Shown here: positions 9,159 to 36,093 of the stretch, one piece after another
Layout of the letters: each line of letters begins with the position of its first letter
How positions within the stretch are numbered: the first letter of the stretch is position 1
IMG/VR virus record: IMGVR_UViG_3300037137_001341
Span: 52,238 to 116,237 of that record
DNA from: a virus
DNA length: 64,000 nucleotides
Strand: one strand, 5' to 3'
Notes under the pieces: generated by a model
Told to the model about the DNA's origin: nothing
The model's database searches: none
What the model saw: only the letters and a program-made list of their open reading frames with translations
Program-made: the position numbers and the translations under genes

Positions 9159-9434
9159 TCAGTCCGCAAATAGCTTCGTTCGCTTCTGGATCTGCTTCAC
9201 GGCGATGCCCGCGATGAGCGAGACCACCACAGCCGTCGTGACCGAGATGAACAGTGGGCGACGGTACCAGACAACCTTGCCGTCGCGACACCCGTCACAT
9301 GACGGATGATCGTCTGGGCCTACGCAGACGACGCAATCGCCGTCCTTCAGATACGTGCACTCGGGGCACGTGACCAGGGCCATGCGCGTTTGCACCTGGC
9401 CGGTCGCAGTCGGGTAACCCACGTAGCCGATCAT
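9159..9434 (-). CDS. Tail-anchored small protein with Cys pairs, 91 aa
   Basis: Three CxxC pairs (residues 23/26, 34/37, 46/49: CPEC, CVVC, CDGC) precede one membrane helix at about 61-79 and a basic C-terminus (QIQKRTK). The Cys pairs could bind zinc or form disulfides. Topology suggests anchoring by the C-terminus. ATG 9434 follows the upstream stop with a 3-base gap. No family recognised. Confidence 0.75.
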   Translation of the reverse strand: MIGYVGYPTATGQVQTRMALVTCPECTYLKDGDCVVCVGPDDHPSCDGCRDGKVVWYRRPLFISVTTAVVVSLIAGIAVKQIQKRTKLFAD

Positions 9435-9437
9435 GGG

Positions 9438-9761
9438 TCAGTCCTCGTCGTCGTCGTCCTCGTGACGCTCGCACCACTCGATGAAGCCGGCGATGGCGTC
9501 GAGGATGGTCTCGTAGCCGTCGTCGATCCGCAGGTGCTTCCTGAACTCTTCGCCTGACTTCAGGTCGACCTCTCGGATCTCGTAGCCACACGTCCTCGAC
9601 TCGTCGTTCGCTCCAGCGCCCTTCTCCCAGAAGAACGTGACGGCGACGTCCTCGCGACCGAGACAATCCTCGGCGCGCTCCGTCATGGCCTCCAGAAGCT
9701 CCGTGCCGACCTCGGCGTCTTCGAGGTAGTCCTCTTGGGGCAGGTGGTTGTTCGCGCGCAT
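9438..9761 (-). CDS. Unknown acidic soluble protein, 107 aa
   Basis: MRANNHLPQEDYLEDAEVG, mixed helix/strand, and a C-terminal acidic run (ERHEDDDDED). No membrane helix, which is unusual among its neighbours. No family recognised. Confidence 0.7.
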   Translation of the reverse strand: MRANNHLPQEDYLEDAEVGTELLEAMTERAEDCLGREDVAVTFFWEKGAGANDESRTCGYEIREVDLKSGEEFRKHLRIDDGYETILDAIAGFIEWCERHEDDDDED

Positions 9762-9767
9762 GGACGC

Positions 9768-10424
9768 CTACCGGCCTCTCGCTCGCGATTCGTGCTGCGC
9801 CTTCAGCTTCAGCCTGTACCGCTCTCCGGCTGCGAGCCTACTCTGATGCTTCTCGTAGGCACTCGTGTAGTCCGACGGTGAACGGGGGCGGTGCTTGTGC
9901 TGATGCGACTCCCACGCCATGTACTCGGCCGGTGAGCGGTGCATGTTCTCCTCGTACCCCTCCCCAGGCACGTAGTACTCGTACTCGGCGATGCCGCGCT
10001 TCCCGAGCCTTCGCTCTCCCTTGCGCGACTTGCGCCTCCCTCGCCGTTGCCGATGCCAGTCGTCGCCTGGCTTCCGCGGCGCTTCCCTGCCACGCTGGTG
10101 CCGCTTGTTCGGCGTGAGCTTCTTCTGCCCCCACCAGGCGTACCCGAACAGGAGCCCGAGCCCGATGCCGAGCGCAACACCGCCAGCGACCACGCCCCAC
10201 GACGTCTCCTTGTACGTCGCCTCCGGGTCGGCCCCGAGCGCTGCCCAGTGCGGCAGGAAGTCATCCTCCCCCGGGATGCTCTGCCCGAGCCCGCCGATGC
10301 CAACGCGCATGGGGCCCGCACGCAGCGGGTTGATGCCCCAGCCCGGCACCGGCGCGTTCTGCCAGCCAGGCGTCGCGACGGCAAGCTCGTGGTAGTCGGC
10401 GTCAGGCACGTTCCAGTACGACAT
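9768..10424 (-). CDS. Single-pass membrane protein with basic cytosolic-type tail, 218 aa
   Basis: N-terminal soluble part (MSYWNVPDADYHELAVA), a GIGGLGQ motif near residue 43, one membrane helix at about 76-98 and then a 115-residue very basic region rich in Arg, Lys and His (HRQRRGRRKSRKGERRLGK). The basic part could contact DNA inside a virion. Start ATG 10424 has SD GAAGGAG. The N-terminal M-S-Y and the GLG motif are shared with many neighbours. Confidence 0.75.
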   Translation of the reverse strand: MSYWNVPDADYHELAVATPGWQNAPVPGWGINPLRAGPMRVGIGGLGQSIPGEDDFLPHWAALGADPEATYKETSWGVVAGGVALGIGLGLLFGYAWWGQKKLTPNKRHQRGREAPRKPGDDWHRQRRGRRKSRKGERRLGKRGIAEYEYYVPGEGYEENMHRSPAEYMAWESHQHKHRPRSPSDYTSAYEKHQSRLAAGERYRLKLKAQHESRARGR

Positions 10425-10563
10425 CGTCTTCTCCTTCGTCCGACGCCATCGCGGGCACCGGGATCGTGTCCCGTTCGTTGTCGACGACCACGCCCCACTC
10501 CCAGGGGGAGGAGGCAAAGTCTTCCTGCGGCTCCTGGTTCTCCTGGTCGGGGTCCGGCGGCAT
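10402..10563 (-). CDS. Small acidic protein, 53 aa
   Basis: Starts MPPDPDQENQEPQEDFASS and ends GEDDVVLERA. It fills the space between two clear genes and overlaps the start of the next gene by 23 bases. Acidic and Pro/Gln-rich, no membrane helix. It is short enough that the call rests mainly on position and reading-frame continuity. Confidence 0.5.
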   Translation of the reverse strand: MPPDPDQENQEPQEDFASSPWEWGVVVDNERDTIPVPAMASDEGEDDVVLERA

Positions 10564-10595
10564 GTGCCCCAGTCTACATGCCCCCTGGGCGCGAG

Positions 10596-10832
10596 TCACC
10601 TGCGGCCCCGCATCCACCAGGCTCCCAGGCCCACGGCCATGACCACCGCGGCGGAGATGACCACGGCGCCCCGCATGACGGCCATGTTGATGGCCGGCTG
10701 GGCCTGGTCCGAGGCGTCGTTGACCAGGGCCTCCATGGGCAGCGTGATCTCCGTGTCCTTCCCCCAGGGGAGGGGCAGGTCCACGAGGTACGTGATCGTC
10801 TTGCCGGGGCCGGCACCCATCGCTCGGTACAT
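10596..10832 (-). CDS. Tail-anchored membrane protein, short paralogue, 78 aa
   Basis: MYRAMGAGPGKTITYLV, then PLPWGKDTEITLPMEALV, then a membrane helix at about 54-73 ending in AWWMRGRR. The gene at 11074-11460 has the same GAGPG, PWGKDTEI and GLxAWW blocks but an extra ~45-residue helical insert. The two are clear paralogues. Family otherwise unknown; a virion membrane protein is the likely role from context. Confidence 0.75.
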   Translation of the reverse strand: MYRAMGAGPGKTITYLVDLPLPWGKDTEITLPMEALVNDASDQAQPAINMAVMRGAVVISAAVVMAVGLGAWWMRGRR

Positions 10833-11073: not shown

Positions 11074-11460
11074 CTACACGCCCTTCTTGATCCACCAGGC
11101 AGCGAGGCCGACCGAGAGGACCACCATGCCGGCGATGCCGAGCGCGGCCTTGATCGCGTCGTCCTTGACCATGTCGACCTTGGCGAACGTGATCTCCATC
11201 TGCTTCGCGATCTCGGGACGGATCACCTCGTCCATCACCTTCTTCACGAGCTTCGGCCCGTAGAGGTTCGCCTCGTCCTCCATGTCGTTGATGAGCTTCG
11301 TCTCCAGCGCGTTGATGTCCGGCGTGAGCGAAGCCCACGTGTCGGCGACCATCGCGTCGACCGGCACGACGATCTCCGTGTCCTTGCCCCACGGAAACGG
11401 CGCGTCGACCTTGTAGGTCTTCGTGGGACCGGGGCCTGCGCCGACGCCGTGGTAGCTCAC
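11074..11460 (-). CDS. Tail-anchored membrane protein, long paralogue, 128 aa
   Basis: GTG 11460 overlaps the upstream stop (GTGA) and gives VSYHGVGAGPGPTKTYKVD. Blocks PFPWGKDTEIVVPVDAM and GLAAWWIKKGV match the shorter paralogue at 10596-10832. Between them lies a helical insert with DEANLYGPKLVKKVMDEVI. The membrane helix is at about 105-123. It was probably derived by duplication of the neighbour. Confidence 0.8.
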   Translation of the reverse strand: MSYHGVGAGPGPTKTYKVDAPFPWGKDTEIVVPVDAMVADTWASLTPDINALETKLINDMEDEANLYGPKLVKKVMDEVIRPEIAKQMEITFAKVDMVKDDAIKAALGIAGMVVLSVGLAAWWIKKGV

Positions 11461-12098
11461 GCTGCCGCCTTCTGCTCGTACTCCCGCCGCAAGACCTCGT
11501 AGGCCACGTTGAACTTCTTCAGTCGCTCGACGTTCAATGCGCGCTGCCGATCGCTCTGCGGCCGGTCGGCGTTGTACTTCAACACGAGCTTCCGGTACTG
11601 CCGCTTGATCTGCTCCCAGTTCGAGCGCGGCGGCATCTTCAGCGCCTTGAGCGCCATCGCCACGGACATGCCGCCGGGAGCCTGCTGCGCCGGAGGCGGC
11701 GGGGATTCCTGACGGCCGTTGGTCCATCCCTCGGCGCGCTTCCTGGCCTTCGTCTCCCCGATGCAGACCTCGCAGATCGCGTCCGCCATGTAGTCCACGC
11801 GGGAATGTGCCAGGCAGCACGGGCGCCCGCACACGTCGCACTTCACGACCGCGTACGACCGGCAGGCTCGGGGTCTCCCGGTGCTCACGTCGGGCGAGGC
11901 GCAGGGCGTGGGGGACATGACGGCGAACGTCCACTTCGAGAGCGCGTTCTTCGTGAGATGCGAGCCCCACTCCTTCAGCTGTTCGGCGACCTCCTGAGCG
12001 GCGGTCGAGCTAGCGCCAAGGTTCTGCGCCATGACGGACGCGAACGTCTCCCACGGGATCTCTGCGGTGGCCCGCTTGAGGCGCTCGAAGAGATCCAT
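11457..12098 (-). CDS. J-domain-like protein with zinc finger, 213 aa
   Basis: The C-terminal 65 residues (MALKALKMPPRSNWEQIKRQ, then RKLVLKYNADRPQS and LKKFNVAYEVLRREYEQK) follow the helix II-loop-helix III pattern of DnaJ J-domains. The HPD tripeptide that triggers Hsp70 ATPase is replaced by NAD. Upstream, KCDVCGRPCCLAHS and ICEVCIGE form a zinc-finger-like Cys/His set. The N-terminal 80 residues are helical. Loss of HPD suggests it does not stimulate DnaK and may compete or act as an assembly factor. ATG 12098 chosen by clear coding start MDLFERLKRATAE. Confidence 0.7.
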   Translation of the reverse strand: MDLFERLKRATAEIPWETFASVMAQNLGASSTAAQEVAEQLKEWGSHLTKNALSKWTFAVMSPTPCASPDVSTGRPRACRSYAVVKCDVCGRPCCLAHSRVDYMADAICEVCIGETKARKRAEGWTNGRQESPPPPAQQAPGGMSVAMALKALKMPPRSNWEQIKRQYRKLVLKYNADRPQSDRQRALNVERLKKFNVAYEVLRREYEQKAAA

Positions 12099-12105: not shown

Positions 12106-12801
12106 CTACGCCGCGGCAGCCGGCCGCGTCGCGTAGAAGGCGCCGAGACCGAGCACGGCCCCGATGCCCACGCCGGCCGCCATGCCCATCGGCTTGGTCT
12201 TCTTCCACAGGACGGCACCGAGGAGCCCCGCGACCGCGCCGCCACCGGCGTACATCGCGAGGTTCTTCTTGTCGTCATCCGTGAGCGGAGCCGCCGAGCC
12301 GAGACCGCGCAGATGACCACTGTGAACGACGGGGCGACGGGGAGGCCGCCGGCGCACCCTGCCGAGCCCGGCCGTAGCGCCTGCGTTGTACCAGGCGATC
12401 AGCGCCTTCTGGAAGCCGGCGTTCATGTGTGACCAGTCGTAGTCCGACAGAGACTCTGTCACATCGACGAGCATCATGTCGCACGAGTCCAGCTGGTTGA
12501 ACCGACCGAGCCCGTGCGCCTGACCCTTGTACGCAGACACGGTACACACGGAGATCCACCGTCCTGTATCCGTGTCGGTGTACCCACCGGTGTACCAGTG
12601 GTAGAGCGTGCTGCGGAATGTGTCCGGCAGCGCTTCCCACTCGCTGTCGTCCATGGCTTCCACTGCCGCGACGAGAGCCGCGTCCGTCCCGTCGCTCTTG
12701 TTGTACTGGCCGACGCCGCTGAAGTACTCGCCCATGCCCTTCATCCCGGGCGGCTTGTACGCGAAAAACTCACCCATTCCTGCTGGTGCTTGCTTGTACA
12801 T
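12106..12801 (-). CDS. Membrane protein with GMGEFF/GMGEYF motifs, 231 aa
   Basis: The N-terminus MYKQAPAGMGEFFAYKPPG is followed by GMGEYFSGVGQYN. The same G-x-G-E-(Y/F)-F motif occurs three times in the 837-aa protein at 21148-23661. Residues 35-165 are a soluble helical domain with two Cys. Two membrane helices lie at about 181-199 and 206-224. GLG motifs occur at residues 97, 145 and 166. Probably a virion membrane protein. Confidence 0.75.
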   Translation of the reverse strand: MYKQAPAGMGEFFAYKPPGMKGMGEYFSGVGQYNKSDGTDAALVAAVEAMDDSEWEALPDTFRSTLYHWYTGGYTDTDTGRWISVCTVSAYKGQAHGLGRFNQLDSCDMMLVDVTESLSDYDWSHMNAGFQKALIAWYNAGATAGLGRVRRRPPRRPVVHSGHLRGLGSAAPLTDDDKKNLAMYAGGGAVAGLLGAVLWKKTKPMGMAAGVGIGAVLGLGAFYATRPAAAA

Positions 12802-12806: not shown

Positions 12807-13856
12807 TTACCTCTTCCTTCGTAGAACGAGTGCGATCCCGAGCAGCGCCACAGCGCCGAGCCCATACATCGCCATGGTGCTCATCATCGGCGCGCTCGCG
12901 CCCCCGGTGTCCACCCGCGTGCCCTTCGTCTTGTCGGCCAGCGACAAGTACGGAGGCAGCACCGGGCCGCCGCCGCCAGCGAACCAGGCGTACAGGTTCG
13001 GCATCGACTTCTTCACGAAGTCCGGGCCCCCGCCCGCAGTGGTCGGAGCCGCCATGAGCCCGACCATGATCCCGATCCCAGTGGCGTTCGGGTACGTCTG
13101 CGCTCCCGCGGACGCGCTCACGGTCTTGCCGCTCATCACCGGGGACGCGGATACGATGTACTGCCAGAGCACGCTCGCCGCCGGCTCCCAGATCCCGCTG
13201 GTGTAGAAGTCGGGCGTGTAGGTCGCCTGCGCCGTCGTACTGAGCGCGAAGCCGCCGCTCGACAGCGCCATCAGCGACTTCACCTCGGCGAGCGTTGCCG
13301 CGTCACCGAGATCGAGCGTTATCCCGGTCACCGCAGCCGGCGCGCCTGCGCCGAGGCTTCCGTCATTGAACGCCCGCAGCGGGCCGAACGTGTTCATGCC
13401 CTCGTAGTGCGGCCCAAGGATCCCCTGGTTGTAGACCGAGATGGGCGTGCCACCGGCCTCGTCCGTATCTCCGAGCGAGCCATCGTTGTATGACCGCAGC
13501 GGTCCCGGCATCGAGGCGTCTGCCGGTGAGCCACCGACCACGCCGTCGGCGTACGCGAAGAGCGATCCAGCGGAGGCGTCACCGAGCCCGAGCGATCCGT
13601 CCGAGTACGCGAACAGCGGGCCAGGCATCGCGGACTCGTCCGGCGAGCCGCCGAACACGCCGTCCGAGTACGCCTGCAACGGCCCCTGCCCGAGCCCGAG
13701 CGATCCGTCCGAGTACGCGAACAACGGGCCAGGCATCTCGGCGCTTGCCGCCGAGCCCCCGACGACACCGTCGGCATATGCCTGCAGCGGGCCCTGACCC
13801 AAGCCGCCGGCGCCCTGGGTGATCTTGGTGCTTCCGAAATATGCGCCTAGCGGCAT
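12807..13856 (-). CDS. Tail-anchored protein with GPLxAYxDG repeats, 349 aa
   Basis: Eight units of about 12 residues with consensus GPLxAYxDGxxG (for example GPLFAYSDGSLG) fill residues 22-169, spaced by Ser/Gly/Glu-rich linkers. A soluble domain (170-320) follows, then a membrane helix at about 327-344 ending RRKR. The repeats resemble no family I can name and could form an extended stalk or bind a partner repeatedly. ATG 13856 is preceded by GAGGAACAC. A TAGGCT -10-like box lies upstream but without a good -35. Confidence 0.8.
   Translation of the reverse strand: MPLGAYFGSTKITQGAGGLGQGPLQAYADGVVGGSAASAEMPGPLFAYSDGSLGLGQGPLQAYSDGVFGGSPDESAMPGPLFAYSDGSLGLGDASAGSLFAYADGVVGGSPADASMPGPLRSYNDGSLGDTDEAGGTPISVYNQGILGPHYEGMNTFGPLRAFNDGSLGAGAPAAVTGITLDLGDAATLAEVKSLMALSSGGFALSTTAQATYTPDFYTSGIWEPAASVLWQYIVSASPVMSGKTVSASAGAQTYPNATGIGIMVGLMAAPTTAGGGPDFVKKSMPNLYAWFAGGGGPVLPPYLSLADKTKGTRVDTGGASAPMMSTMAMYGLGAVALLGIALVLRRKR
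13350..13793 (-). repeat. Eight GPLxAYxDG coding repeats
   Basis: The N-terminal half of the protein at 12807-13856 is made of eight imperfect units, with alternating longer (DGVVGGS) and shorter (DGSLG) forms. The alternation suggests the array grew by duplication of a two-unit block. Confidence 0.85.
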
Positions 13857-13885: not shown

Positions 13886-14113
13886 TCAGTCCCCTACGAA
13901 AGCCTCGATGCGGGGCCGCAGAAAGTACATGGCGATCCCGCCGGCTACGACGCCGACCCCGAGCCAGGCCCAGCCGGGCACACCGGCGCCGATCTCGTCC
14001 GCCCCGAGCCCAACGGCCCTCCCGAGGATCCCCATGGGGCCGCCCACGTTGTCCATCGTGGGCCCGAGCGCCTCGGCGCCAGCCGCAAGAGACCTCTTCT
14101 GCTGATCGGTCAT
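13886..14113 (-). CDS. Small single-pass membrane protein, 75 aa
   Basis: MTDQQKRSLAAGAEALG, a GLGAD motif at about residues 35-39, and a membrane helix at about 48-65 followed by LRPRIEAFVGD. ATG 14113 overlaps the upstream stop (ATGA). No family recognised; one of the series of C-terminally anchored proteins. Confidence 0.75.
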   Translation of the reverse strand: MTDQQKRSLAAGAEALGPTMDNVGGPMGILGRAVGLGADEIGAGVPGWAWLGVGVVAGGIAMYFLRPRIEAFVGD

Positions 14114-14334
14114 CGGGACCTCGGCCTCACCGGATCACGCAGCACGAAATACCCGAGCACGATCGCCACCCCGAGGAGCCCGAGCGCCATCCGGTGCGCC
14201 AGCTGCACGGTCTCCGGCGACGGCTCCGTTGGAGCATCGCCCATCGCGCCCGAGCAGCCGCAGCCGCCCACGCCGACGAGCTTGCCGGACATGTCCCCGT
14301 AGGGAGGGACACCGGCGATGGCGACCAGATTCAT
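14110..14334 (-). CDS. Small single-pass membrane protein, 74 aa
   Basis: MNLVAIAGVPPYGDMSGK, a Gly/Cys-rich stretch (VGVGGCGCSG) and a membrane helix at about 49-65 followed by a basic end (RDPVRPRSR). A GTG two codons upstream (14340) overlaps the preceding stop as GTGA and could be the real start. No family recognised. Confidence 0.7.
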   Translation of the reverse strand: MNLVAIAGVPPYGDMSGKLVGVGGCGCSGAMGDAPTEPSPETVQLAHRMALGLLGVAIVLGYFVLRDPVRPRSR

Positions 14335-14336
14335 GT

Positions 14337-15254
14337 TCACTTCTTGTACTTCCGGTACATGTAGTAGCCGCCGCCACCCACCGCGAGCAGCGCAAGGATC
14401 CCCCACATCGCCGACGTCGAGGACGCCTGCGTCGTTGGCTTGTGGAACATCGGGATGCAGTTGCTGCCGACCAGATGTGATCCGGGCGGGCAAGTCGTCG
14501 CTACTGTCAGCGCCACGCAGTTGCCGTTCGCGTCCCACACGTACCCTGGTGAGCAGTCGCCCGCGCAGACGCTCGTGCCGTCCGTGAAGTGGAACGGTGA
14601 CCTGCCCGCTGGACACGTCACGCAGTTCCCGTTCGCGTCCCAGGCATGCTCCGGGTCACAGATCCCCGCGCACTGCCCCTTGAAGAGCGCGTGCCCCGGA
14701 GGACACGACGTCACCGCGCACGGCGGCGCCGCCATCAGCTTCGCCCACCAAGCGGGATCGTGTTGGCCGAGCCAGCAGAGGACGTTCCAGTCCTTGTTGT
14801 CCCCACCTCCCGCGTTGCAGTAGTCCCGCAGCTTCGCGAACTCCGGCGTGATGCACGCAGCAGGAGCCGGGAGTCCGGCGCCGGGACAGAACGGGAGCTT
14901 CGAGAGCGCGATGGCGGTCCACTGCGCCGCCGTGTCATTCACGCAGTCGAAGTCCGGGTTCAGCACGCGGCCATTGGCGCAGTTGGCGATAACGCCGGCC
15001 GTGTACGTGTCGATGCACGTCGGCGTCGGGCAGATGTTCGAGTCGGCAACAGAACACGGCGGAAAGGCGGCCAGCCTCCCACTCATCTTGTACTCGACGC
15101 CGAGCCCGGTCAGCGTTCCGCTTCTCTGAGCCGCACAGAGCCCGACCGCCTCGTCATGCTCCGCCTGCGAGACACACGTCGGCTCCGAGAGGGAGCGGAT
15201 CCCGCTGGGGGTCATCTCCAGGAGGCCGAGACCTGTCATCGATCGGTACGTCAT
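14337..15254 (-). CDS. Cys-rich tail-anchored protein A, 305 aa
   Basis: Starts MTYRSMTGLGLLE. Residues 25-170 contain regularly placed Cys and a block LRDYCNAGG...NVLCWLGQHDPAWW also found in the next two genes. Residues 175-260 hold Cys modules CPPGHALFKGQC and CSPGYVWDANGNC that resemble short EGF-like or disulfide knots. A membrane helix at about 281-299 ends YRKYKK. The high Cys content suggests exposure to an oxidising or extracellular setting. Function unknown; probably a virion surface or spike-base protein. Confidence 0.75.
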   Translation of the reverse strand: MTYRSMTGLGLLEMTPSGIRSLSEPTCVSQAEHDEAVGLCAAQRSGTLTGLGVEYKMSGRLAAFPPCSVADSNICPTPTCIDTYTAGVIANCANGRVLNPDFDCVNDTAAQWTAIALSKLPFCPGAGLPAPAACITPEFAKLRDYCNAGGGDNKDWNVLCWLGQHDPAWWAKLMAAPPCAVTSCPPGHALFKGQCAGICDPEHAWDANGNCVTCPAGRSPFHFTDGTSVCAGDCSPGYVWDANGNCVALTVATTCPPGSHLVGSNCIPMFHKPTTQASSTSAMWGILALLAVGGGGYYMYRKYKK

Positions 15255-15258: not shown

Positions 15259-15813
15259 TCACTTCTTCCTGAGCATCATGTACCCGAGGCCGAGCACAGC
15301 GACGGCACCGAGCCCGTACAGAGCCATGGTGGTCGTGCTCATGCCGGCCTGCGTGTCTCCGCCGCCGCCGGCGGAGCAGTGCGGAGTCTCCTGCGCCTTG
15401 TCCCAGTACGTCGGCGACTTGCTGGCGGCCCAGCAGAGCGAGTTCATCCCGGCCGTCGGCCCGTCGAAGAACGGGTACTTGTCGCAGTACGCGAGCCCCT
15501 GCAGATACGTTTCGTCGAGGCACGCCGGCATGCCACCGGCGAACGCCGTGTCGAAGCTCGGGCACCCTGGAAGGGCGTCCACGCCGCACTGATTCAGGTG
15601 AGCGCAGAGCGCGCTCCACACGGCGGCGCTCACGCCGGGGGGAGCCGGCTCCTTGGCCTTACATTCGGCGATGGCCGCGATCCAAGTCTGATCGAGGCAC
15701 GTGTTCCCGCCCTCCGTGGGGATCCCCTGACCGCACGGCAGAGCGGTCGCGTACTGCATGGCCTGCTCAAGCGTGGGGGGCGGTTCGGCTCCTATGCTGC
15801 TGTTTCGGTACAT
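15259..15813 (-). CDS. Cys-rich tail-anchored protein B, 184 aa
   Basis: MYRNSSIGAEPPPTLEQ, then about ten Cys in the ectodomain with the shared block NSLCWAASKSPTYWDKAQ, and a membrane helix at about 162-181 (TMALYGLGAVAVLGLGYM) ending LRKK. It lacks the GYVWDANGNC modules of its two neighbours and so is the minimal member of the family. Start ATG 15813 follows the upstream stop closely. Confidence 0.75.
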   Translation of the reverse strand: MYRNSSIGAEPPPTLEQAMQYATALPCGQGIPTEGGNTCLDQTWIAAIAECKAKEPAPPGVSAAVWSALCAHLNQCGVDALPGCPSFDTAFAGGMPACLDETYLQGLAYCDKYPFFDGPTAGMNSLCWAASKSPTYWDKAQETPHCSAGGGGDTQAGMSTTTMALYGLGAVAVLGLGYMMLRKK

Positions 15814-15819: not shown

Positions 15820-16860
15820 TCACTTCTTTCTCATCACCATGTAGCCGACACCGAGTGCGACGAGCGCGCCGATCCCGAACATAGCCATGGTCGTGCTGCT
15901 CATTCCGGCTTGCTGCGTGCCGCCACCGCCACCGCCGGCGGACGGCGGGACACATGCGCCGGTGACCGGATCACGGGTGTACCCGTAGCCGTATACGGAG
16001 CAGTCGTCGGCCGGCAGGATGTGCTTGGTCGTGTCGGCCTGCAGCACGCAGGTACCGCTGGAGTCCCTGATGTAGCCGGTGTCGCACGGGGTCGGCAGCT
16101 TCACGTCTGCAACGCAGTCGCTTCCGACCAGATGGAAGCCCGCGCTGCACGTCTTGGGTGGTGGCGGCGTCGGCGCCGCTACAGGGATGCAGTTGCCGTT
16201 CGCGTCCCACACGTACCCTGGTGAGCAGTCGCCGACGCACTGGCCCTTGAACATCGAGTGCCCAGGAGGGCACGTCGTCGGGGCGGCGCCCGCAGTTGCC
16301 ACGCAGTTGCCGTTCGCGTCCCAGACATATCCCGGTGAGCAGTCGCCGACGCACACGAACTTCTTCGACGGCAGCATGAACATCGAGTGCCCAGGAGCGG
16401 CAACCGGAACGTCCATGAACTGCTGGTACAGATCCGGGAAGCGATGCAGCGTCCAGCAAGCCGCGTCGAGACTAGGGTTCCGTGGGTAATTGACCGGAAA
16501 CGTCTTGCAGTAGTTGATCTCGTTCCGAAAGACGGTCCCGACTTCCGACGTATCGGTGCATCCCGGAATCATGGCGATCCATGGCGCCGTGTCGATGTCC
16601 GAGCAGCCCAGCTTCTTGAACATGCCGCAGGTTCCGAGTGCAGCACGCGCATCCTGGAACTGCTGGTCGGTCAAGTTGGCCGGCTTCTGGCCGGTGTAGA
16701 ACAGCGACAGGATCTGGATCATCTGCGCGCTGAGACACGGCGCGTTAGCCAAGTCCGCGGGGCAGCCGTTCACTGCGATCCCGTAGAGCAGGTACGCGAC
16801 CTGATCCGGCGTCAGCGGGGCCTCGGCGGCCCCGAGTCCTCTCATCTCTCTGTACGTCAT
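15820..16860 (-). CDS. Cys-rich tail-anchored protein C, 346 aa
   Basis: MTYREMRGLGAAEAPLTPDQ, a Cys-rich helical part with DAACWTLHRFPDLYQQF, then two copies of the module CSPGYVWDANGNCV and related Cys units (CPPGHSMFKGQCVG, CSAGFHLVGSDC). A Gly run precedes a membrane helix at about 324-343 ending MRKK. Same family as the two downstream genes. ATG 16860 overlaps the upstream stop (ATGA). The modules recur in the protein at 27560-27799. Confidence 0.78.
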   Translation of the reverse strand: MTYREMRGLGAAEAPLTPDQVAYLLYGIAVNGCPADLANAPCLSAQMIQILSLFYTGQKPANLTDQQFQDARAALGTCGMFKKLGCSDIDTAPWIAMIPGCTDTSEVGTVFRNEINYCKTFPVNYPRNPSLDAACWTLHRFPDLYQQFMDVPVAAPGHSMFMLPSKKFVCVGDCSPGYVWDANGNCVATAGAAPTTCPPGHSMFKGQCVGDCSPGYVWDANGNCIPVAAPTPPPPKTCSAGFHLVGSDCVADVKLPTPCDTGYIRDSSGTCVLQADTTKHILPADDCSVYGYGYTRDPVTGACVPPSAGGGGGGTQQAGMSSTTMAMFGIGALVALGVGYMVMRKK

Positions 16861-27563: not shown

Positions 27564-27799
27564 GACTGCCTCCAGATCATGTACCCCGACGCAACCAGGA
27601 GCCCGAGGCCGATGAACCCGACAGTCGACAGACGTACCTGCGACGTCTCCTGCTCTGAGAGCGTCTTGCTGATCTGCAACAGCTGCTTTTGCTCCAGCGT
27701 CAGCGGCTTGCAGTCGCCGTTCTCGTCCCAGGCGTAGCCGGGGCTGCATATGCCGACGCACTGGCCCTTGAAGAGCGCATGACCAGAAGCGCAGGTCAT
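27560..27799 (-). CDS. Tail-anchored single Cys-module protein, 79 aa
   Basis: Residues 1-30 (MTCASGHALFKGQCVGICSP, then GYAWDENGDC) are one copy of the Cys module repeated in the proteins at 14337-15254 and 15820-16860. A helical stalk (31-56) and a membrane helix (58-76) follow. It is a minimal stand-alone version of the module and links the two structural operons. ATG 27799 overlaps the upstream stop (ATGA). Confidence 0.78.
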   Translation of the reverse strand: MTCASGHALFKGQCVGICSPGYAWDENGDCKPLTLEQKQLLQISKTLSEQETSQVRLSTVGFIGLGLLVASGYMIWRQS

Positions 27800-29946: not shown

Positions 29947-30506
29947 CCCGCGATGCCGTCCTTCCCAATCGTGAGCGAGCCGCCGGTCAGGAGCATGTGC
30001 ACCCCCTCGGGGGTGTACACGAACAGAAACGTCTCCCCTGTCTCTGGGTGCTTCGCCGAAGCGAGCATCGCCCGTGAGATTCGGACCTCGTAGAAACCGA
30101 CGTTCTTCGGGAGCACAAGCTCCCCGCCATCGTCCTCTTCGTAGAGGTGCACCTGGACGCCGAGTAGCGGTCCGAGCCGCGTGAAGTGCTTCGGCATGGG
30201 CTCGTCGAACTGCACGACGGGGCCCACGACCTCGATGCGGCTCGACGGGGAGCCCCACTCGCGAAGAAAGCCTGGCGCCGCGTACACGGTGCGTGAACCC
30301 TCTGCCACGTGCTTGTAGTCCTCGTGCTCCGCGAGGTTCTTCTGCCACTTGTTCGAGCGGTACATCTCGGCGCCGCCGACACCGATCTCCTGCATCCGAG
30401 ATGGCCAGGTGAACGGCATCTCGATCTCGCGCTCAGACTCCCGCGCGTAGAACGTCTTGAACGTCTTCAGCGCCTGCGGCTTAGTATCGACGACGCGGAG
30501 GGCCAT
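29943..30506 (-). CDS. Unknown soluble protein, 187 aa
   Basis: MALRVVDTKPQALKTFKTFY, then alpha/beta sequence (GVQVHLYEEDDGGELVLPKN; FLFVYTPEGVHMLLTGGS). No membrane helix, making it an exception in this operon. ATG 30506 chosen because all upstream sequence reads as shadow. A peripheral virion protein is possible. No family recognised. Confidence 0.72.
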   Translation of the reverse strand: MALRVVDTKPQALKTFKTFYARESEREIEMPFTWPSRMQEIGVGGAEMYRSNKWQKNLAEHEDYKHVAEGSRTVYAAPGFLREWGSPSSRIEVVGPVVQFDEPMPKHFTRLGPLLGVQVHLYEEDDGGELVLPKNVGFYEVRISRAMLASAKHPETGETFLFVYTPEGVHMLLTGGSLTIGKDGIAG

Positions 30507-30517: not shown

Positions 30518-30868
30518 CTACCTCTTCTTCGCGACGTACCAGAGAAGCACTGCACCGGCGACTCCAGCGACCACCCAGAGTACTGTTGACGGCGGCGCTC
30601 CGTCGAGCCCGGCGAGCGAGCGCGTGCGGCGCACGAGGCGCGCCTCGTCCACCGGAGCGATGAGGCCGACAGCTACGTCGCCCTCGCCGACGATCTTGGA
30701 GCCCGGCGGGACCGGGCGGCCCGCCTCGATCGAGGGGACGCCGATCTTCGTGGCGGCCTGAAGGACAGGGGACGGGAGATCGTCGTTGATGTTGAAGCTC
30801 CCCGGTGCCTGCAGGTACTCGTACCCGCCGGTGTCCGGCTTCCATCGCGAGTAGATCGTGGTGCTCAC
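30518..30868 (-). CDS. Tail-anchored membrane protein, 116 aa
   Basis: GTG 30868 overlaps the upstream stop (GTGA): VSTTIYSRWKPDTGGYEYL. A beta-type segment (GSKIVGEGDVAVGLIAPVDE) resembles an SAF/antifreeze-like or AFP-like strand pattern only loosely. The membrane helix at about 95-112 ends VAKKR. Family unknown. Confidence 0.72.
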   Translation of the reverse strand: MSTTIYSRWKPDTGGYEYLQAPGSFNINDDLPSPVLQAATKIGVPSIEAGRPVPPGSKIVGEGDVAVGLIAPVDEARLVRRTRSLAGLDGAPPSTVLWVVAGVAGAVLLWYVAKKR

Positions 30869-31770
30869 GCCGCCGCTCCTCGCCGCCGAGACGCGAGCAT
30901 CATGGGGACGACGATGCTCGCCACGTAGAGCCCGAGCCCGATCGCGGCGACCCAAGCGAGCGGCTGCAGCAGGGTCCCCATGAAGCCAAGGAGATCCGGG
31001 TTCCCATTCTTCTGGATGCTCTGCATCGCGGCGACGCAGTTGCGCATGTCATCCGCGGTGCCGGTCTTGCTGAGCTTGTCGCAGTACGCGATGACCTTGT
31101 CGGTGATCGGGGAGCCGATCTGCCAGACGTACACGAGGTAGCAGACCCCGAGGACAAGTACGATGCCGAGCGCCGCGAGCGCCCAACCGCCGAGCACCAG
31201 CTGGATTGCCCCGACACCAGCTGCCGGCGCCTCCGGCGTCGTCTTGAACTGATCAAGGTGCCCGTTCTTTTCCAGGTCCACGAACGTCTGCCACGTCTGC
31301 ACAAGCGAGTTCGCGTGCGCCATGACGTCGCCCGGCGTGACCTTGCCGGCCCGCATCGCGTTCTCCATGACGCCGTCGTAGTGGAGGTACGCGCCGTTCA
31401 TGGACGAGGCCGCGAGCGTCGCGAGCGCGTCCACCGCGAGGGAGCGAGGGAAGTGCACCGACGCCTCCCAGTCGCCAGCCTTCGTCGCCTGCCACACGTC
31501 GGCGCCCGTCTGGTTGATGAGCGCCATCAGCTGCGTCATCGCATGCCGAGCATCGCCCGCCTGGATGGTCCGGTACTTGTCCCGGAACTCCTGGCTGAGC
31601 TTGCCGAGCACGCCGAGGAACTTGGCGCCCTCCTGGAGCATGAGATCCTGGTACGCGCTGTCGAAGCCGTTCTCGTCGATGCCATGACCCTTCGCGATCA
31701 GGCCGTCCCATGGGATCCCGGGCGGCCCCACGAGGTCGTCGTACATCCCGGCGAGCTTCTCGATGAACAT
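30865..31770 (-). CDS. Membrane protein with long helical N-terminal domain, 301 aa
   Basis: Residues 1-170 are predicted helical (LGKLSQEFRDKYRTIQAGDA). Two long membrane segments, about 180-207 (LALxxLGIVLVLGVCYLVYV type) and 265-292 (LAWVAAIGLGLYVASIVVPM), flank a soluble loop with two Cys (YCDK; RNCVA). Ends ASRRRGAAA. Family unknown. Confidence 0.73.
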   Translation of the reverse strand: MFIEKLAGMYDDLVGPPGIPWDGLIAKGHGIDENGFDSAYQDLMLQEGAKFLGVLGKLSQEFRDKYRTIQAGDARHAMTQLMALINQTGADVWQATKAGDWEASVHFPRSLAVDALATLAASSMNGAYLHYDGVMENAMRAGKVTPGDVMAHANSLVQTWQTFVDLEKNGHLDQFKTTPEAPAAGVGAIQLVLGGWALAALGIVLVLGVCYLVYVWQIGSPITDKVIAYCDKLSKTGTADDMRNCVAAMQSIQKNGNPDLLGFMGTLLQPLAWVAAIGLGLYVASIVVPMMLASRRRGAAA

Positions 31771-32557: not shown

Positions 32558-33316
32558 TCACTTCCTCTTCTTCGACATGTACAGGCCGGCACCGACCGCG
32601 GCGACGACGAAACCACCGAGCATCCAGGCCGTGGCGCTGGAGGACTTGCCCGTCGTCGGCCCGACGTGCGGAGCATCGGCGATCTTCGCCGGGAGCACCA
32701 TGTTCGGGCAATCCAGATCGAAGCGGATGCTTGTACATCCAGCCGGCAGCGAGGGGAGCACCGGATGGAAGCTGATGCCAAGCTCATGGAGCTTGAACAT
32801 CGCTCCGCAGGTCGCGCTGTCGTACACACCGGTCTGCGGGATCGCGTTGTAGCCGGCGGCGGTCAGCGCAGTGCTCAGCGCATCCTGCAGATCATCCGCG
32901 ATATTGCTCTTCTGGTTCAACGCGAGGAAGCACGGATCGGCCGCCGGCCCGGCTGGGGGCGAGGTCCCACCACTAGAGGGCGCGACCGGCGCGGCGGTCG
33001 AGTCCGACGGGGCCTGAGAAGGAGCAGGCGCAGCCGCGACCCACGACGCCGGCAACTTCACGACGTCCCCGACCTTCGCGCAGAACCCGTACTGCGTGCA
33101 CTTGTGCGCCGGGTTCGCCGTGGCAAGTTCGGTCCACCGGTTGCCGTTGCCCGTGATCGCCTTCGCGACGGACGTGCCGGTGTCCCCGCTCCTCCAGGTG
33201 TACGTCGGCGCCGATGACAGACCGAGCCCCCCGAAGCCCATGTTCGAGCCGTCGAACAGGCCGCCGCCGTAGCCGCCGCCACCGAAGATGCCTTCTCGCG
33301 TGTGAACCTGGATCAT
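32558..33316 (-). CDS. LysM-domain tail-anchored protein, 252 aa
   Basis: Starts MIQVHTREGIFGGGGYGGG with GGLGLSSAP. Residues about 35-90 (YTWRSGDTGTSVAKAITGNG, then ELATANPAHK and VGDVVKLPASW) form a LysM-type domain, which binds GlcNAc of peptidoglycan. After a Pro/Ser linker, IPQTGVYDSATCGAMFKL matches the peptidoglycan-binding segment of the protein at 31777-32148. A membrane helix at about 228-246 ends SKKRK. ATG 33316 has SD CAGGAG. Probably attaches the virion membrane to the cell wall. Confidence 0.8.
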   Translation of the reverse strand: MIQVHTREGIFGGGGYGGGLFDGSNMGFGGLGLSSAPTYTWRSGDTGTSVAKAITGNGNRWTELATANPAHKCTQYGFCAKVGDVVKLPASWVAAAPAPSQAPSDSTAAPVAPSSGGTSPPAGPAADPCFLALNQKSNIADDLQDALSTALTAAGYNAIPQTGVYDSATCGAMFKLHELGISFHPVLPSLPAGCTSIRFDLDCPNMVLPAKIADAPHVGPTTGKSSSATAWMLGGFVVAAVGAGLYMSKKRK

Positions 33317-33318: not shown

Positions 33319-33594
33319 CTATCTCCTGACGAGACAAAAACCGCCGATGACGCCGATTGCACCGAGGAGCCATGGCGTCCACGGCGCGTAGGTCTCCGCA
33401 GTCGCCGCCGCCTGACCGAGTCCGTTGGCAGGGACGAAGCCGCGCCTGAGCATCCCCGGCTGGAGCCCCATCGTGCGCGGCGGGATCATGCCCAGGCCCT
33501 GCGTCGACCAGTTCGACGGAACGTGGATGACGTCACGGAAGATGGCCGCGCCCTCTTCGCGCTCCTGCAGACCCTTTCCATCTCGACGGTACAT
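33319..33594 (-). CDS. Small tail-anchored membrane protein, 91 aa
   Basis: MYRRDGKGLQEREEGAAIFR, two GLG motifs (QGLGMIPP, NGLGQAAA) and a membrane helix at about 70-89 ending CLVRR. Family unknown. Confidence 0.75.
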   Translation of the reverse strand: MYRRDGKGLQEREEGAAIFRDVIHVPSNWSTQGLGMIPPRTMGLQPGMLRRGFVPANGLGQAAATAETYAPWTPWLLGAIGVIGGFCLVRR

Positions 33595-33597: not shown

Positions 33598-33918
33598 CTA
33601 GTAGCTGCCTTTGTAGCCGGAGAAGTGGAGGTACGCATACGTCGCAAGCCCCAGGGCCGCGATGAACAGCACCGTCTTCCCGACGGACGGGCCAGCCGTG
33701 TCGTCCCCAAGCCCTTGCATCCCCGCTTCGAGCCCGAAGTCGTTCGGTCGCTCCGCCCACGGGAGCCCGAACTGCGGGCGCGTGTAGATCGGCCCGTGGA
33801 ACCGCGTCGGGTACGAGTGCAGCATCACGGTGTACGGGTTCGGCACGCCAGGGGGCACCGGACCGTCGTACGTGTTCAGCGACTGGCCTAAACCAGCCAT
33901 GCAGGGAACGCACGCCAT
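33598..33918 (-). CDS. Small tail-anchored membrane protein, 106 aa
   Basis: MACVPCMAGLGQSLNTYDGP with two Cys at the start, a Pro-rich middle, QGLGDD just before the membrane helix at about 82-98, and a short tail YLHFSGYKGSY. Family unknown. Confidence 0.75.
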   Translation of the reverse strand: MACVPCMAGLGQSLNTYDGPVPPGVPNPYTVMLHSYPTRFHGPIYTRPQFGLPWAERPNDFGLEAGMQGLGDDTAGPSVGKTVLFIAALGLATYAYLHFSGYKGSY

Positions 33919-33921: not shown

Positions 33922-34317
33922 TCAGCCCTTCCTCTTGTTCGCGACGATGCCCATGACGCCGAGACCGAGCACCCCGGTGAAGAGCCCGACCGGCACACCG
34001 ATCCAGCCCCACGTGGTCGCATCCTGCCGAGACGGCGCAATCGCCTTGCCCGCCTGGTAGCTCAGCGCGCCTGCGACGCCGAGGATCGCCAGCATCCAGG
34101 CCATGTCCGCGCTCGTCATCTTCGTGTCCACCGGGACGCCAGTCCCTGTGTCAGCCGGGGCATCCCCGAGCCCACGTATCGCAGCCACCACGGGGCTCAG
34201 CGCGAAGAACCGTGACTTGCCGACCGCGCCGGTGCCGGCGGCTGCCTGCGTCATGGCGCCGGCAGGGACGTCCTGCGAGAAGACGTCGAACGTGGGCAAA
34301 ATGCTTTGGCTGTCCAT
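33922..34317 (-). CDS. Membrane protein, two helices, 131 aa
   Basis: An N-terminal soluble part with RGLGDAPAD near residue 49, helices at about 70-87 and 103-125, ends ANKRKG. Preceded by GAGGAGCAC at a good SD distance from ATG 34317. Family unknown. Confidence 0.75.
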   Translation of the reverse strand: MDSQSILPTFDVFSQDVPAGAMTQAAAGTGAVGKSRFFALSPVVAAIRGLGDAPADTGTGVPVDTKMTSADMAWMLAILGVAGALSYQAGKAIAPSRQDATTWGWIGVPVGLFTGVLGLGVMGIVANKRKG

Positions 34318-34324: not shown

Positions 34325-35020
34325 TCACTTCTTCATCAGGGTCGCGGCCACGATGCCGACCGCGACGCCGACGATGGCGAATCCCGCGAAGATGCCGAAC
34401 TTGGAGCCGGAATCCGTCGCCGGAGCATCGGCACCGAGCCCGTTCACTGGCCACGCCTCCTCGTTCGGGATCCAGGTCCCGCCGGGATCGGGATGCGTGA
34501 CGTTCTGCGGACTCACGCCGGGAGGAAGCTCCCAGAGCAGCTGCCTCTCGCGCACGGTGTCCAGCTGGCTCTGATCGATCGCGACCGCGCCGCCGGGCAC
34601 GTACATGACGGGCTGGCCAGTGGTCGCGTCGATCACCTCCGACGGCTGGTAGTCGATCGAGTTCACCAAGTAACCCGGCATCGAAGCGTGGTCCGCGAAC
34701 ACGCCGTAATCCGGGTGGATGTTCCCCTGCGTGCCGTGCGGATCGAACACGCCATTGCCTTGTACATCGTCCGCTGCTGCGAGCGTGTTTAGCTCGTTCG
34801 CGTAATCCTTGATTCCGATGTCTGCGGTCATGCCGTTGTCTCCCAGGCCCGCGATGTTGCGCCCACGCGCGCCGCGGTACATGTCGTACGAAGGGTTCAT
34901 GCCGCTCGGACGCATGTCCGGCGGCCCGATCTCGTCGATGCTCGGAAGGTCGCCGCCGAACATCGGCTGGCTCGCGTACACCGGGTACGGGGGACGCAGG
35001 GCTCGAAGGACGTTGCTCAT
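34325..35020 (-). CDS. Tail-anchored membrane protein, 231 aa
   Basis: A long soluble part (MSNVLRALRPPYPVYASQPM; GGAVAIDQSQLDTVRERQLL) with AGLGDNG and NGLGADAP motifs, the second just before the membrane helix at about 208-227 ending MKK. ATG 35020 overlaps the peptidase stop (ATGA). Family unknown. Confidence 0.75.
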   Translation of the reverse strand: MSNVLRALRPPYPVYASQPMFGGDLPSIDEIGPPDMRPSGMNPSYDMYRGARGRNIAGLGDNGMTADIGIKDYANELNTLAAADDVQGNGVFDPHGTQGNIHPDYGVFADHASMPGYLVNSIDYQPSEVIDATTGQPVMYVPGGAVAIDQSQLDTVRERQLLWELPPGVSPQNVTHPDPGGTWIPNEEAWPVNGLGADAPATDSGSKFGIFAGFAIVGVAVGIVAATLMKK

Positions 35021-35505
35021 GTGATGCTCCTTGGCGCTCCCGGATCTTCATCGAGGCTCACCGTGTAAAAAGTCGTCACACGATCGAGCATGCCGCGCTC
35101 GTCCGTGCCCCCGACGGGGTCACAAACTACCCATTCCCCGCTTCGCGGTTCCTTCACGCGCGTGAACACGTGGCTGTACTGGCCGGCCTCACCGAAGCCG
35201 ACGACCACGAACTCGGCGACGCGGCCAAGCTGCAACGCCATCGTCGCGATGATCGTCGCCATGTCATCGCAATCACCGATCGCACTTCCGTGCGCGGCTA
35301 CTTCCTCGACGAGCCTCTGTGCGTCCTTCACGAGTTCGGTGTGCAGGGGGTCGTTGACGTAATGAACGCGCTCCGTCACCCAGTACCGCACCGCCAGGAT
35401 CTCGCCGAGGTAGTCCTTCGGCTGCACCTGTCGAACGATCTGCTCGACCATGCTCCGCACGAGCATGCTCTTCTCGCCCCGTTCGCCATGCGTCGCGCTC
35501 ACCAT
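35017..35505 (-). CDS. Transglutaminase-like cysteine peptidase, 162 aa
   Basis: The transglutaminase/papain-type triad is complete: Cys in AIGDCDDMATI, His in GQYSHVFTR, Asp in WVVCDPVGG, with YLGEILAVRYWVTERVHYVN upstream as in phage members of this superfamily. Such proteins cleave peptide bonds or form isopeptide links. It is the first gene after the extended promoter at 35.6 kb, so it is co-expressed with virion membrane proteins. ATG 35505 is used; an in-frame TTG at 35544 would add 13 residues and is also plausible. No good SD for either. Confidence 0.82.
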   Translation of the reverse strand: MVSATHGERGEKSMLVRSMVEQIVRQVQPKDYLGEILAVRYWVTERVHYVNDPLHTELVKDAQRLVEEVAAHGSAIGDCDDMATIIATMALQLGRVAEFVVVGFGEAGQYSHVFTRVKEPRSGEWVVCDPVGGTDERGMLDRVTTFYTVSLDEDPGAPRSIT

Positions 35506-35596
35506 GGCCCGGAGTGTGTCCGGGTGACCATGAAAAGCGCTCAATGAGTGTGGCGGGTTAGCGGAGAGCAAGGGTATCCCGAGCCGGGGGTCGGGA

Positions 35597-35667
35597 GCGC
35601 CCTGCACTCGGAAGCCTACCGGCGCCAGGCTCGTAACTCAAGCGCGGGATATGTCCTGGGGTTTTCC
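35597..35667 (-). promoter_or_regulatory. Extended leftward promoter of the second structural operon
   Basis: TTGAGT (35641-35636), 17 bases, TAGGCT (35618-35613). Twelve bases above the -35 is GGAAAACCCCAGGA read leftward (35667-35654). GCAGGGCGC then TCCCGAC lie at the start of the transcript (35605 downward). The same elements in the same order occur at 23712-23785, so the two structural operons are probably switched on together by one activator or sigma factor. Confidence 0.7.
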
Positions 35668-35679
35668 GGCTACTTCGTC

Positions 35680-35886
35680 TCAGCCCCGCGGCTCCGACAG
35701 CATCCATGCGCGCCCCTCGGCGCGCCGCATCGCGACCACGCGGGCCGTGCCCTTATCGAGCAGCACGCTCGCGATGGCGAGCGCGGCGAAGATGCTGGTC
35801 CCGAGCCACCAAACCTTTCTGTCCTCCTCGCTCGTGTCAGCGCCGATGCCGATGGAGGAGCAGCAGGTTCCGATTTGGCGGTACAT
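35680..35886 (-). CDS. Small membrane protein, 68 aa
   Basis: MYRQIGTCCSSIGIGADTSE, a membrane helix at about 26-43 and a 25-residue tail (MRRAEGRAWMLSEPRG). The SGIGADT-like block is shared with the next gene upstream. Family unknown. Confidence 0.72.
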   Translation of the reverse strand: MYRQIGTCCSSIGIGADTSEEDRKVWWLGTSIFAALAIASVLLDKGTARVVAMRRAEGRAWMLSEPRG

Positions 35887-35889
35887 GAT

Positions 35890-36093
35890 CTACCGGCTCC
35901 CCCGAAGCCCGAGCGGGTCCTTCGCGTCAATGGCGAAGAACGCGACCGCGAGGCCCACGAGGAGGCCGCCTGCGACCCAGCTGGTGCCCGAACCCATCTG
36001 CGCCGTGTCGGCGCCGATCCCAGACATGTGTCTGCGCCCGTGCGGCCTGACCAGTGGCGCGCCGCCGTAGCCACCTGCGACGCTGTGGTACAT
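35890..36093 (-). CDS. Small membrane protein, 67 aa
   Basis: MYHSVAGGYGGAPLVRPHGR, SGIGADT at about residues 24-30 and a membrane helix at about 38-56. The ATG at 36093 lies 7 bases below a TAGCCT -10 box, so it may be read from a nearly leaderless mRNA. Family unknown. Confidence 0.72.
   Translation of the reverse strand: MYHSVAGGYGGAPLVRPHGRRHMSGIGADTAQMGSGTSWVAGGLLVGLAVAFFAIDAKDPLGLRGSR

Follow-up and report, generated by a model that had tools for sequence, protein, structure and literature searches.

A tailless membrane virus lineage probably related to SSIP-1, proposed from a block of anchored protein genes in a 116 kbp virus record

Related membrane-containing viruses

SSIP-1 is an isolated salt lake phage that has been an orphan since 2012. 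It contains a membrane and is counted among the vertical single beta-barrel phages (PMC4958249, PMC6356626), and its gp40 is its predicted packaging ATPase (PMC4124505). The Sphaerolipoviridae and Simuloviridae (SH1, HHIV-2 and SNJ1; Helvetiavirae, Singelaviria) are likewise tailless, with an internal membrane, more than one soluble shell protein and genomes of 16-30 kb (PMC12642351, PMC12643093). The PRD1/PM2-type double jelly-roll phages are tailless and carry small virion membrane proteins, and their genomes of roughly 7-18 kb encode an FtsK-HerA ATPase (PMC5894146). In the surveyed literature, the genomes of tailless membrane-containing prokaryotic viruses measure about 7-44 kb.

Here we describe a stretch of 64,000 nucleotides (the window), bases 52238-116237 of the 116,237 bp IMG/VR virus record IMGVR_UViG_3300037137_001341. 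We suggest that its gene block at 9159-36093 probably encodes the virion of a large dsDNA virus that has no tail and whose membrane is internal (or lines the capsid), a member of an undescribed lineage distantly related to SSIP-1. The original prediction of a large tailless membrane phage of an undescribed group is supported by a homologue of SSIP-1 gp34, by a block order like that of SSIP-1 and by the anchors and GxG motifs of SSIP-1. It had also likened the virus to PRD1, PM2 and P23-77; the membrane phage plan is supported, but the closest known virus is SSIP-1. The lineage would share the tailless plan of the groups named above, but it has no FtsK/HerA ATPase (apart from one HerA-like gene, see below) and no sequence relation to the Sphaerolipoviridae and Simuloviridae, and no match to the double jelly-roll major capsid protein (MCP) or ATPase of the PRD1/PM2 type. 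With about 80-180 kb, its genomes are 2-4 times larger than the 44 kb of SSIP-1. Relatives of this size in metagenomes would give SSIP-1 a lineage and, if our reading is true, giant-virus-like genome size enters the tailless membrane morphotype in prokaryotes.

Genome record and lineage

Gene calling gave 41 genes inside the block and 146 elsewhere in the record. The record encodes the replication genes RecE/YqaJ, RecT, DnaB and RuvC, lysis-type genes (SLT, amidase, M23), a tyrosine integrase and glycosyltransferases. It looks like a virus of a bacterium or archaeon with a genome above 100 kb. Four MAG bins of the lineage fall in four groups (Pseudomonadota, Methanomicrobiales, Deltaproteobacteria and Planctomycetota), and we therefore distrust host assignment by binning.

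Seven related records are complete, with exact end repeats of 120-127 bp and sizes of 83-160 kb; the window's own record has no end repeats. In record G031, the gp34-type gene and the gene of candidate MCP1 are located at opposite contig ends, with the usual spacing across the ends, which fits a circular map. The lineage genomes are probably circular-mapping; SSIP-1 is a circular dsDNA virus. When 2.9 million viral contigs were searched with an alignment of gp34-type sequences, 24 loci emerged, comprising the present lineage, SSIP-1 itself and a subgroup of 80-86 kb. Candidate MCP1 is present in all five records of this subgroup, and in L093-L095 it is located 7-9 kb downstream of the gp34-type gene.

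Membrane protein genes

Membrane segments were called by a fixed hydropathy rule. A C-terminal anchor was defined as a last segment at most 25 residues from the C-terminus, followed by a tail of net basic charge. Of the 41 block proteins, 27 have one or more membrane segments, against 20 of the 146 proteins outside the block (p 2e-10); C-terminal anchors with basic tails number 22/41 against 5/146 (Fisher p 5e-13). Shuffled block proteins had a mean of 0.36 anchored sequences and a maximum of 3 (200 runs). A similar excess was seen in four other lineage records, with 27, 19, 21 and 7 C-terminally anchored proteins. The block had been predicted to hold about thirty membrane proteins, most with the helix near the C-terminus and a basic tail. 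The cluster and the anchor type were borne out; the number was a slight overcount under our rule, and a few borderline segments would nearly make up the difference. We considered LPXTG/sortase or another surface anchor as the role of the C-terminal helices and rejected it, as no LPXTG-type motif was seen by eye in the translations. The membrane protein genes, and one soluble protein gene among them, are listed below; locus counts are out of 30 loci.

9159-9434, minus strand, membrane-anchored protein, 91 aa, tail KQIQKRTK
9768-10424, minus strand, membrane protein, 218 aa, long basic C-terminal domain (12/30 loci)
10596-10832, minus strand, C-terminally anchored protein, tail RGRR
11074-11460, minus strand, C-terminally anchored protein, tail KKGV
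12106-12801, minus strand, membrane protein, repeated G[ML]GE[YF]F-type motifs
12807-13856, minus strand, C-terminally anchored repeat protein, 349 aa, tail RRKR
13886-14113, minus strand, small membrane protein, 75 aa (17/30 loci)
14110-14340, minus strand, C-terminally anchored protein, tail RPRSR
14337-15254, minus strand, Cys-rich C-terminally anchored protein, tail RKYKK
15259-15759, minus strand, C-terminally anchored protein, tail LRKK
15820-16860, minus strand, Cys-rich C-terminally anchored protein, tail MRKK
16857-17693, minus strand, anchored protein, 278 aa, basic tail, adjoins the capsid cassette (16/30 loci)
26152-26517, minus strand, C-terminally anchored protein, tail TRRRR
26517-27563, minus strand, C-terminally anchored protein, tail RGRR
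27560-27826, minus strand, C-terminally anchored Cys-rich protein
27796-29946, minus strand, large C-terminally anchored protein, 716 aa, tail RMMRR (12/30 loci)
29943-30506, minus strand, conserved soluble protein, 187 aa, no match among GenBank phages (22/30 loci)
30518-30868, minus strand, C-terminally anchored protein, tail AKKR (19/30 loci)
30865-31770, minus strand, two-helix membrane protein, tail SRRRGAAA
32155-32553, minus strand, C-terminally anchored protein, tail RASKKR
32558-33316, minus strand, C-terminally anchored protein, tail SKKRK
33319-33594, minus strand, C-terminally anchored protein, tail LVRR
33598-33918, minus strand, C-terminally anchored protein, two GLG motifs
33922-34317, minus strand, two-helix membrane protein, tail NKRKG
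34325-35020, minus strand, C-terminally anchored protein, tail LMKK, two GLG motifs
35680-35886, minus strand, small membrane protein, GIGAD motif
35890-36093, minus strand, small membrane protein, GIGAD motif

As in the lineage block, the late genes of SSIP-1 encode C-terminal anchors with Lys tails (6/25 late genes against 0/32 early genes) and GxG motifs (15 in late against 1 in early genes). The order of the block is also alike in SSIP-1 and the lineage: a coiled-coil gene, a gp34-type gene, small anchored proteins and a soluble cassette. The small anchored proteins fill 8-14 kb between the gp34-like gene and three beta-rich soluble proteins.

Homologue of SSIP-1 gp34

35017-35505, minus strand, transglutaminase-like cysteine protein, 162 aa, SSIP-1 gp34 homologue (GenBank search, hhalign, Pfam)
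36134-38776, minus strand, long coiled-coil protein of 880 aa, rich in Pro and Gln, encoded upstream of the gp34 homologue

The sole match of the 35017-35505 protein among 50,697 GenBank phages was SSIP-1 gp34 (E 2e-7), and hhalign gave 97.5% for the pair. The gp34-type triad, C79-H112-D129, is invariant across six sequences, and there is a Pfam Transglut_core match within the block. The protein is a candidate maturation protease. As judged by sequence, the gp34-type protein, common to SSIP-1 and the present lineage, is the only one demonstrably homologous to SSIP-1; single-sequence searches with gp45 or gp34, meant to bridge to SSIP-1, returned SSIP-1 alone. Transglutaminase-like domains are found outside viruses too, which counts against our reading. 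The coiled-coil protein upstream is conserved in G002, G018, G007 and G022, and SSIP-1 ORF33 resembles it in make-up and position. Homology between the two was rejected, since hhalign on the termini was empty and the likeness is one of make-up only.

The block could instead belong to a mobile element that is not viral, plasmid-like or otherwise, with the anchored proteins forming a cell surface or secretion system. A role in the cell envelope would suit the membrane proteins and glycosyltransferases, and the record has an integrase. We consider this highly improbable: in SSIP-1, gp34 is part of the virion, candidate MCP1 is absent from the 72,556 plasmids searched, and the matches listed include no conjugation or secretion family.

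Candidate capsid proteins

18132-19040, minus strand, third soluble protein of the capsid cassette, 302 aa (24/30 loci, tblastn)
19054-20163, minus strand, candidate major capsid protein 2 (MCP2), 369 aa, N-terminal helix, C-terminal beta domain
20213-20992, minus strand, candidate major capsid protein 1 (MCP1), 259 aa, soluble, beta-rich (conservation, AF2/Foldseek)
21148-23106, minus strand, very basic membrane protein, 652 aa, hydrophobic segments, repeated G[VL]GE[YF]F

The three large soluble proteins predicted at 18-21 kb were confirmed to be without membrane segments, and paralogy among them was considered and none was detectable. Candidate MCP1 is the most conserved protein of the lineage (alignment A6, 31 sequences). 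It was found in 24/24 virus records searched, of which the 19 large ones carry a single copy each, and shortens to about 190 aa in L095. Candidate MCP2 (alignment A9) adjoins it in 30/30 loci. The third protein (alignment A10) was also found by profile in L031, L033 and L039.

The AF2 model of candidate MCP1 has pLDDT 70 and pTM 0.71, and that of candidate MCP2 pLDDT 63. Jelly-roll capsids of internal-membrane viruses stand at or near the top of the Foldseek lists (E>0.01), and no match of these medium quality models reaches E 0.001. For candidate MCP2, the best PDB matches are SH1 and HHIV-2 capsid chains (prob 0.75 and 0.57, E>0.03). For candidate MCP1, the best capsid-like PDB match is a chain of Sulfolobus polyhedral virus 1 (SPV1; prob 0.38, non-significant). 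In BFVD, the second rank for candidate MCP1 is an unnamed 211 aa entry, I1ZBH9, which is as long as SSIP-1 gp46. The models point weakly to single jelly-roll capsid proteins of the SH1, HHIV-2 and SPV1 type. Structure prediction, as had been proposed for 18-21 kb, gave for these two candidates beta-rich models with a weak, non-significant jelly-roll resemblance. A PDB sequence search with the candidate MCP1 and MCP2 profiles gave nothing, and both proteins lack sequence similarity to SSIP-1 gp45-47. In the block, neither Pfam nor PHROGs showed a double jelly-roll MCP, and the 259 aa length of candidate MCP1 was weighed against such a protein on sequence evidence.

The very basic membrane protein is kept beside candidate MCP1 in 18/30 loci, and in the distant L093 an equivalent R/K-rich protein precedes candidate MCP1. 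Its residues 1-330 are 41% K+R with pI 11.7, and an upstream GTG would lengthen the gene to 23661. From its composition, it may be a DNA-condensing core protein.

Tail, terminase and portal genes

The window had been predicted to have no tail, terminase or portal genes, and this holds across 116 kb. Using Pfam and PHROGs over the whole record, we did not find terminase, portal, tape-measure, tail-tube or sheath families, and about 24 related virus records gave no terminase, portal or tail gene either. The main alternative raised at the outset, tail genes outside the window, fails because the remaining 52 kb and the relatives complete by end repeats have none.

A further alternative is a tailed phage (Caudoviricetes) with terminase, portal and tail genes too diverged to recognise and with accessory membrane proteins. 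Its replication genes would fit, as these types are common in tailed phages and RecT best matches tailed phages (34-39%). G018 also shows some matches to PHROG 'tail fiber' families, but these coincide with Pfam collagen repeats. The TerL model was silent in 31 virus records, as in Pfam scans of G000, G018 and G022, and the Pfam portal model in 24, closed records included, and both models do score in bacterial control genomes. Scanned in six frames for P-loops, G018 and G022 gave no TerL-like ATPase, and a TerL-like match in G014 is a ResIII-type helicase. A PHROG 'portal' label (E 1.7e-7) in the record was set aside: on rescanning it belonged to none of ten large candidates, and the Pfam portal model was negative. 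Together with the SSIP-1 link, this makes a tailed phage improbable.

Proposed virion assembly

For a tailless membrane virus, we propose the following assembly. In brief, the soluble proteins at 18-21 kb would form a shell upon a vesicle derived from the host membrane and bearing at least 20 small anchored proteins, with the main domain facing the shell and the basic tail facing the DNA. Condensation of the genome upon the membrane would fall to the K/R-rich membrane protein at 21-23 kb. The transglutaminase-like gp34 homologue would be a virion component, and its role may be to process or cross-link block proteins, perhaps at the xxG[LIVM]G motif that they share. We are least certain of the packaging step, for which there is no recognisable translocating motor. 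Because the capsid fold evidence is suggestive only, we infer the lipid and the particle shape of the lineage from its genes.

We also speculate, as a rather doubtful extension, that this is a new high-rank lineage of tailless prokaryotic membrane viruses with circular dsDNA above 100 kb, no translocating motor, a membrane-embedded protamine-like protein that condenses the genome onto the vesicle, and gp34-type maturation at xxG[LIVM]G. The lineage would make genome packaging without an identifiable motor testable. Candidate MCP1, candidate MCP2 and the gp34-type protein are a marker set for such viruses in existing data; since the lineage escapes tail and terminase searches, the set finds what those searches miss.

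Packaging ATPases

Most viruses of the tailless internal-membrane morphotype carry a packaging ATPase, and its lack here counts against our reading. The FtsK/HerA-type ATPase expected by the original prediction is not in the record. With PF01580 and PF01935, no gene of the lineage scored above cut-off save one HerA-like gene in G014. SSIP-1 has the gp40 ATPase, but the present lineage has no homologue; a search for gp40-like ATPases gave no match in 24 records, and SSIP-1 itself does score.

Some viruses assembled by budding also have no packaging ATPase. The missing ATPase, the many membrane proteins and the candidate condensing protein would thus suit a membrane virus of another architecture, externally enveloped or pleomorphic and without an icosahedral jelly-roll shell. 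The lysis-type genes argue against it, as do the three conserved beta-rich soluble proteins with their weak jelly-roll resemblance and gp34, which ties the lineage to an icosahedral virus, and we regard it as unlikely. We retain the tailless reading, in which the membrane is internal or lines the capsid.

The HerA-like ATPase of G014 was rejected as a packaging motor, as it is not conserved in the lineage. It adjoins a gene that by eye resembles 62996-63856 of the window; the neighbour in G018 is a transposase-like zinc-ribbon gene.

Membrane proteins of the probable virion block

The window forms the right-hand end of a 116,237-bp IMG/VR record. The other 52 kb were added to it, and genes were called on the whole record with a codon-usage script that gives approximate start sites. 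This yielded 41 genes in the probable virion block at 9159-36093. By a fixed hydropathy rule, 27 of these encode a membrane segment, versus 20 of 146 in the rest of the record (Fisher p 2e-10). A terminal membrane segment with a short net-basic tail is found in 22 of 41 versus 5 of 146 (Fisher p 5e-13), and in a mean of 0.36 shuffled block proteins. The clustering is real and far from chance, and the many proteins with C-terminal anchors and basic tails originally noted here are borne out. Features of the block are as follows.

11457-12098 (-), DnaJ-domain protein, kept in 17 of 30 loci
14337-15254, 15820-16860 and 27560-27826 (-), anchored proteins with Cys-rich CPPGHxxFKGQC...DANGNC repeats (TIL-like)
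18132-19040, third soluble protein of the candidate capsid cassette
19054-20163, MCP2, candidate major capsid protein
20213-20992, MCP1, candidate major capsid protein
24105-25900 (+), glycosyltransferase and calcineurin-like phosphatase, opposite strand
35017-35505, gp34-type gene, transglutaminase-like

The TIL-like repeats suggest disulphide bonding beyond the cytoplasm or in virions once released, and the DnaJ-domain protein is possibly a virion-linked J-protein. The pair at 24105-25900 breaks up the block; it is likely recent cargo, because it is restricted to one close relative (L004/L012, 61-68% identity).

Lineage and closed genomes

Relatives of MCP1 turned up at 26 IMG/VR loci and on four MAG contigs, and in none of 50,697 GenBank phage records or 72,556 plasmids. 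MCP1 is present in 24 of 24 virus records searched, and the 19 large ones have a single copy apiece; in an 80-86-kb subgroup the matches are adjoining pieces of one open frame, and record G031 has one further weak partial match. MCP2 and the third soluble protein follow MCP1 in relatives also.

Several relatives are closed. Seven records (G001, G005, G017, G018, G024, G028, G031) begin and end with the same 120-127 bp, and G004, G012 and G022 have near-terminal repeats. Repeats of this length may arise when an assembler overlaps the ends of a circular genome. In G031 the contig ends must be joined to keep the usual spacing between the gp34-type gene and MCP1. The closed genomes span 82.6 to 159.9 kb.

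Gene content

Proteins of 60 aa or longer, split into three groups, were compared with Pfam and PHROGs, and for each group the listing covers the 25 commonest families; 20 large proteins were additionally scanned directly. The matches listed include RecE/YqaJ, RecT, DnaB, primase, RuvC, Thy1, GroES, Nudix, glycosyltransferases, tyrosine integrase, SLT, amidase and M23 enzymes. No terminase, portal, tape measure, tube or sheath is among those listed for the whole record or in the 20 large proteins. The TerL model phrog_2 detected no TerL in 31 virus records of the lineage, and the Pfam portal model matched none in 24. One weak phrog_2 match was rejected as a ResIII-type helicase. The absence of tail genes extends to the rest of the record and, for terminase and portal, to related records; the alternative that they lie outside the window fails, as the 52 kb there show none among the matches listed.

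Relationship to SSIP-1

The sole GenBank phage match of the 35017-35505 protein is gp34, annotated as a structural protein, of the salt-lake phage SSIP-1 (two records of the same phage). Four lineage homologues likewise match gp34, and profile-profile comparison of the family with gp34 gave 97.5%. Cys79, His112 and Asp129 are invariant across six gp34-type sequences. A family search of 2.9 million viral contigs retrieved the lineage, SSIP-1 and the 80-86-kb subgroup, which carries MCP1 downstream of the gp34-type gene (MCP2 too in two records).

SSIP-1 has no tail, contains a membrane and belongs to the vertical single beta-barrel phages (PMC4958249, PMC6356626), with T=49, a diameter of about 100 nm and a 44 kb genome. 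Its late genes resemble the block: a C-terminal anchor with basic tail occurs in 6 of 25, versus 0 of 32 early genes, and G[LIVM]G motifs number 15 versus one. The order is shared: a coiled-coil gene is followed by the gp34-type gene, then by anchored proteins, most of them small, over 8-14 kb, and last by the soluble cassette.

AF2 models of MCP1 (259 aa; pLDDT 70, pTM 0.71) and MCP2 (pLDDT 63) are beta-rich. The top capsid-like structure matches were SPV1 for MCP1 and SH1, HHIV-2, PBCV-1 and vaccinia D13 for MCP2, with no E-value <0.01. Each of these is a jelly-roll protein, as would be expected, but the heads of influenza haemagglutinin reach similar scores. The second match of the MCP1 model in BFVD is an unnamed 211-aa entry, as long as SSIP-1 gp46. 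A jelly-roll fold of both proteins is taken as probable.

The reading as a probable tailless membrane phage holds as far as sequence can tell; the lineage, closed genomes, SSIP-1 connection and missing motor are added to it. We file the lineage as a variant of the SSIP-1 kind. Its membership in Singelaviria, which was established as a realm for Helvetiavirae in 2025 (PMC12714852), is not regarded as demonstrated, because the defining capsid fold is predicted from models and the ATPase was sought and not found.

A shared motif

The block has 44 copies of G[LIVM]G that lie outside membrane segments, versus 16 expected from composition, with an excess in four relatives also. The position two residues ahead is Met, Ile or Leu in 46 of 137 cases versus 14% expected; homologous proteins are counted repeatedly here, which makes the p-value too favourable. 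This resembles the adenovirus protease consensus, (M/I/L)xGx-G. As the block also encodes a conserved cysteine enzyme, the gp34-type protein, one may reasonably guess that it acts in maturation; a motif for assembly or docking is just as compatible with the data.

Genome packaging

The expected FtsK/HerA-type packaging ATPase did not materialize: FtsK_SpoIIIE and DUF87/HerA profiles gave nothing above cut-off in the lineage except one HerA-like gene in G014. SSIP-1 has gp40, its predicted packaging ATPase (PMC4124505), whereas no gp40 homologue was found in the lineage. P-loop scans of closed G018 left DnaB and a small kinase-like ATPase. The membrane protein adjoining MCP1 has 41% Lys+Arg over its first 330 residues and is found in distant members too. 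Given that no motor was found and that this protein lies beside MCP1, we tentatively propose that the genome is packaged by condensation on the membrane; the task could also fall to DnaB, to a host enzyme or to an ATPase that escaped recognition.

Other genes

1857-2852 (-), GT4-type glycosyltransferase downstream of the block, with a homologue even in distant G022
3627-4994 (-), conserved 455-aa protein, also downstream
6948-9068 (-), 706-aa protein rich in SHAEG/ASG repeats of the YadA head type (Pfam YadA_head)
L003 (the window's own record) 3200-5673 (+), left half, MoxR-type AAA+ ATPase, then a probable VWA-type gene
L003 11962-16236 (+), 1,424-aa protein with a tyrosine-integrase domain at residues 230-556, kept in G002

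The 706-aa protein is probably a receptor-binding fibre. The 1,424-aa protein is unusually long for an integrase. G022 (L056-L063) also has a MoxR-like gene and, by Pfam, a Tad2-like anti-Thoeris domain, two Cas12f/TnpB-type zinc-ribbon genes and a TOTE-type primase.
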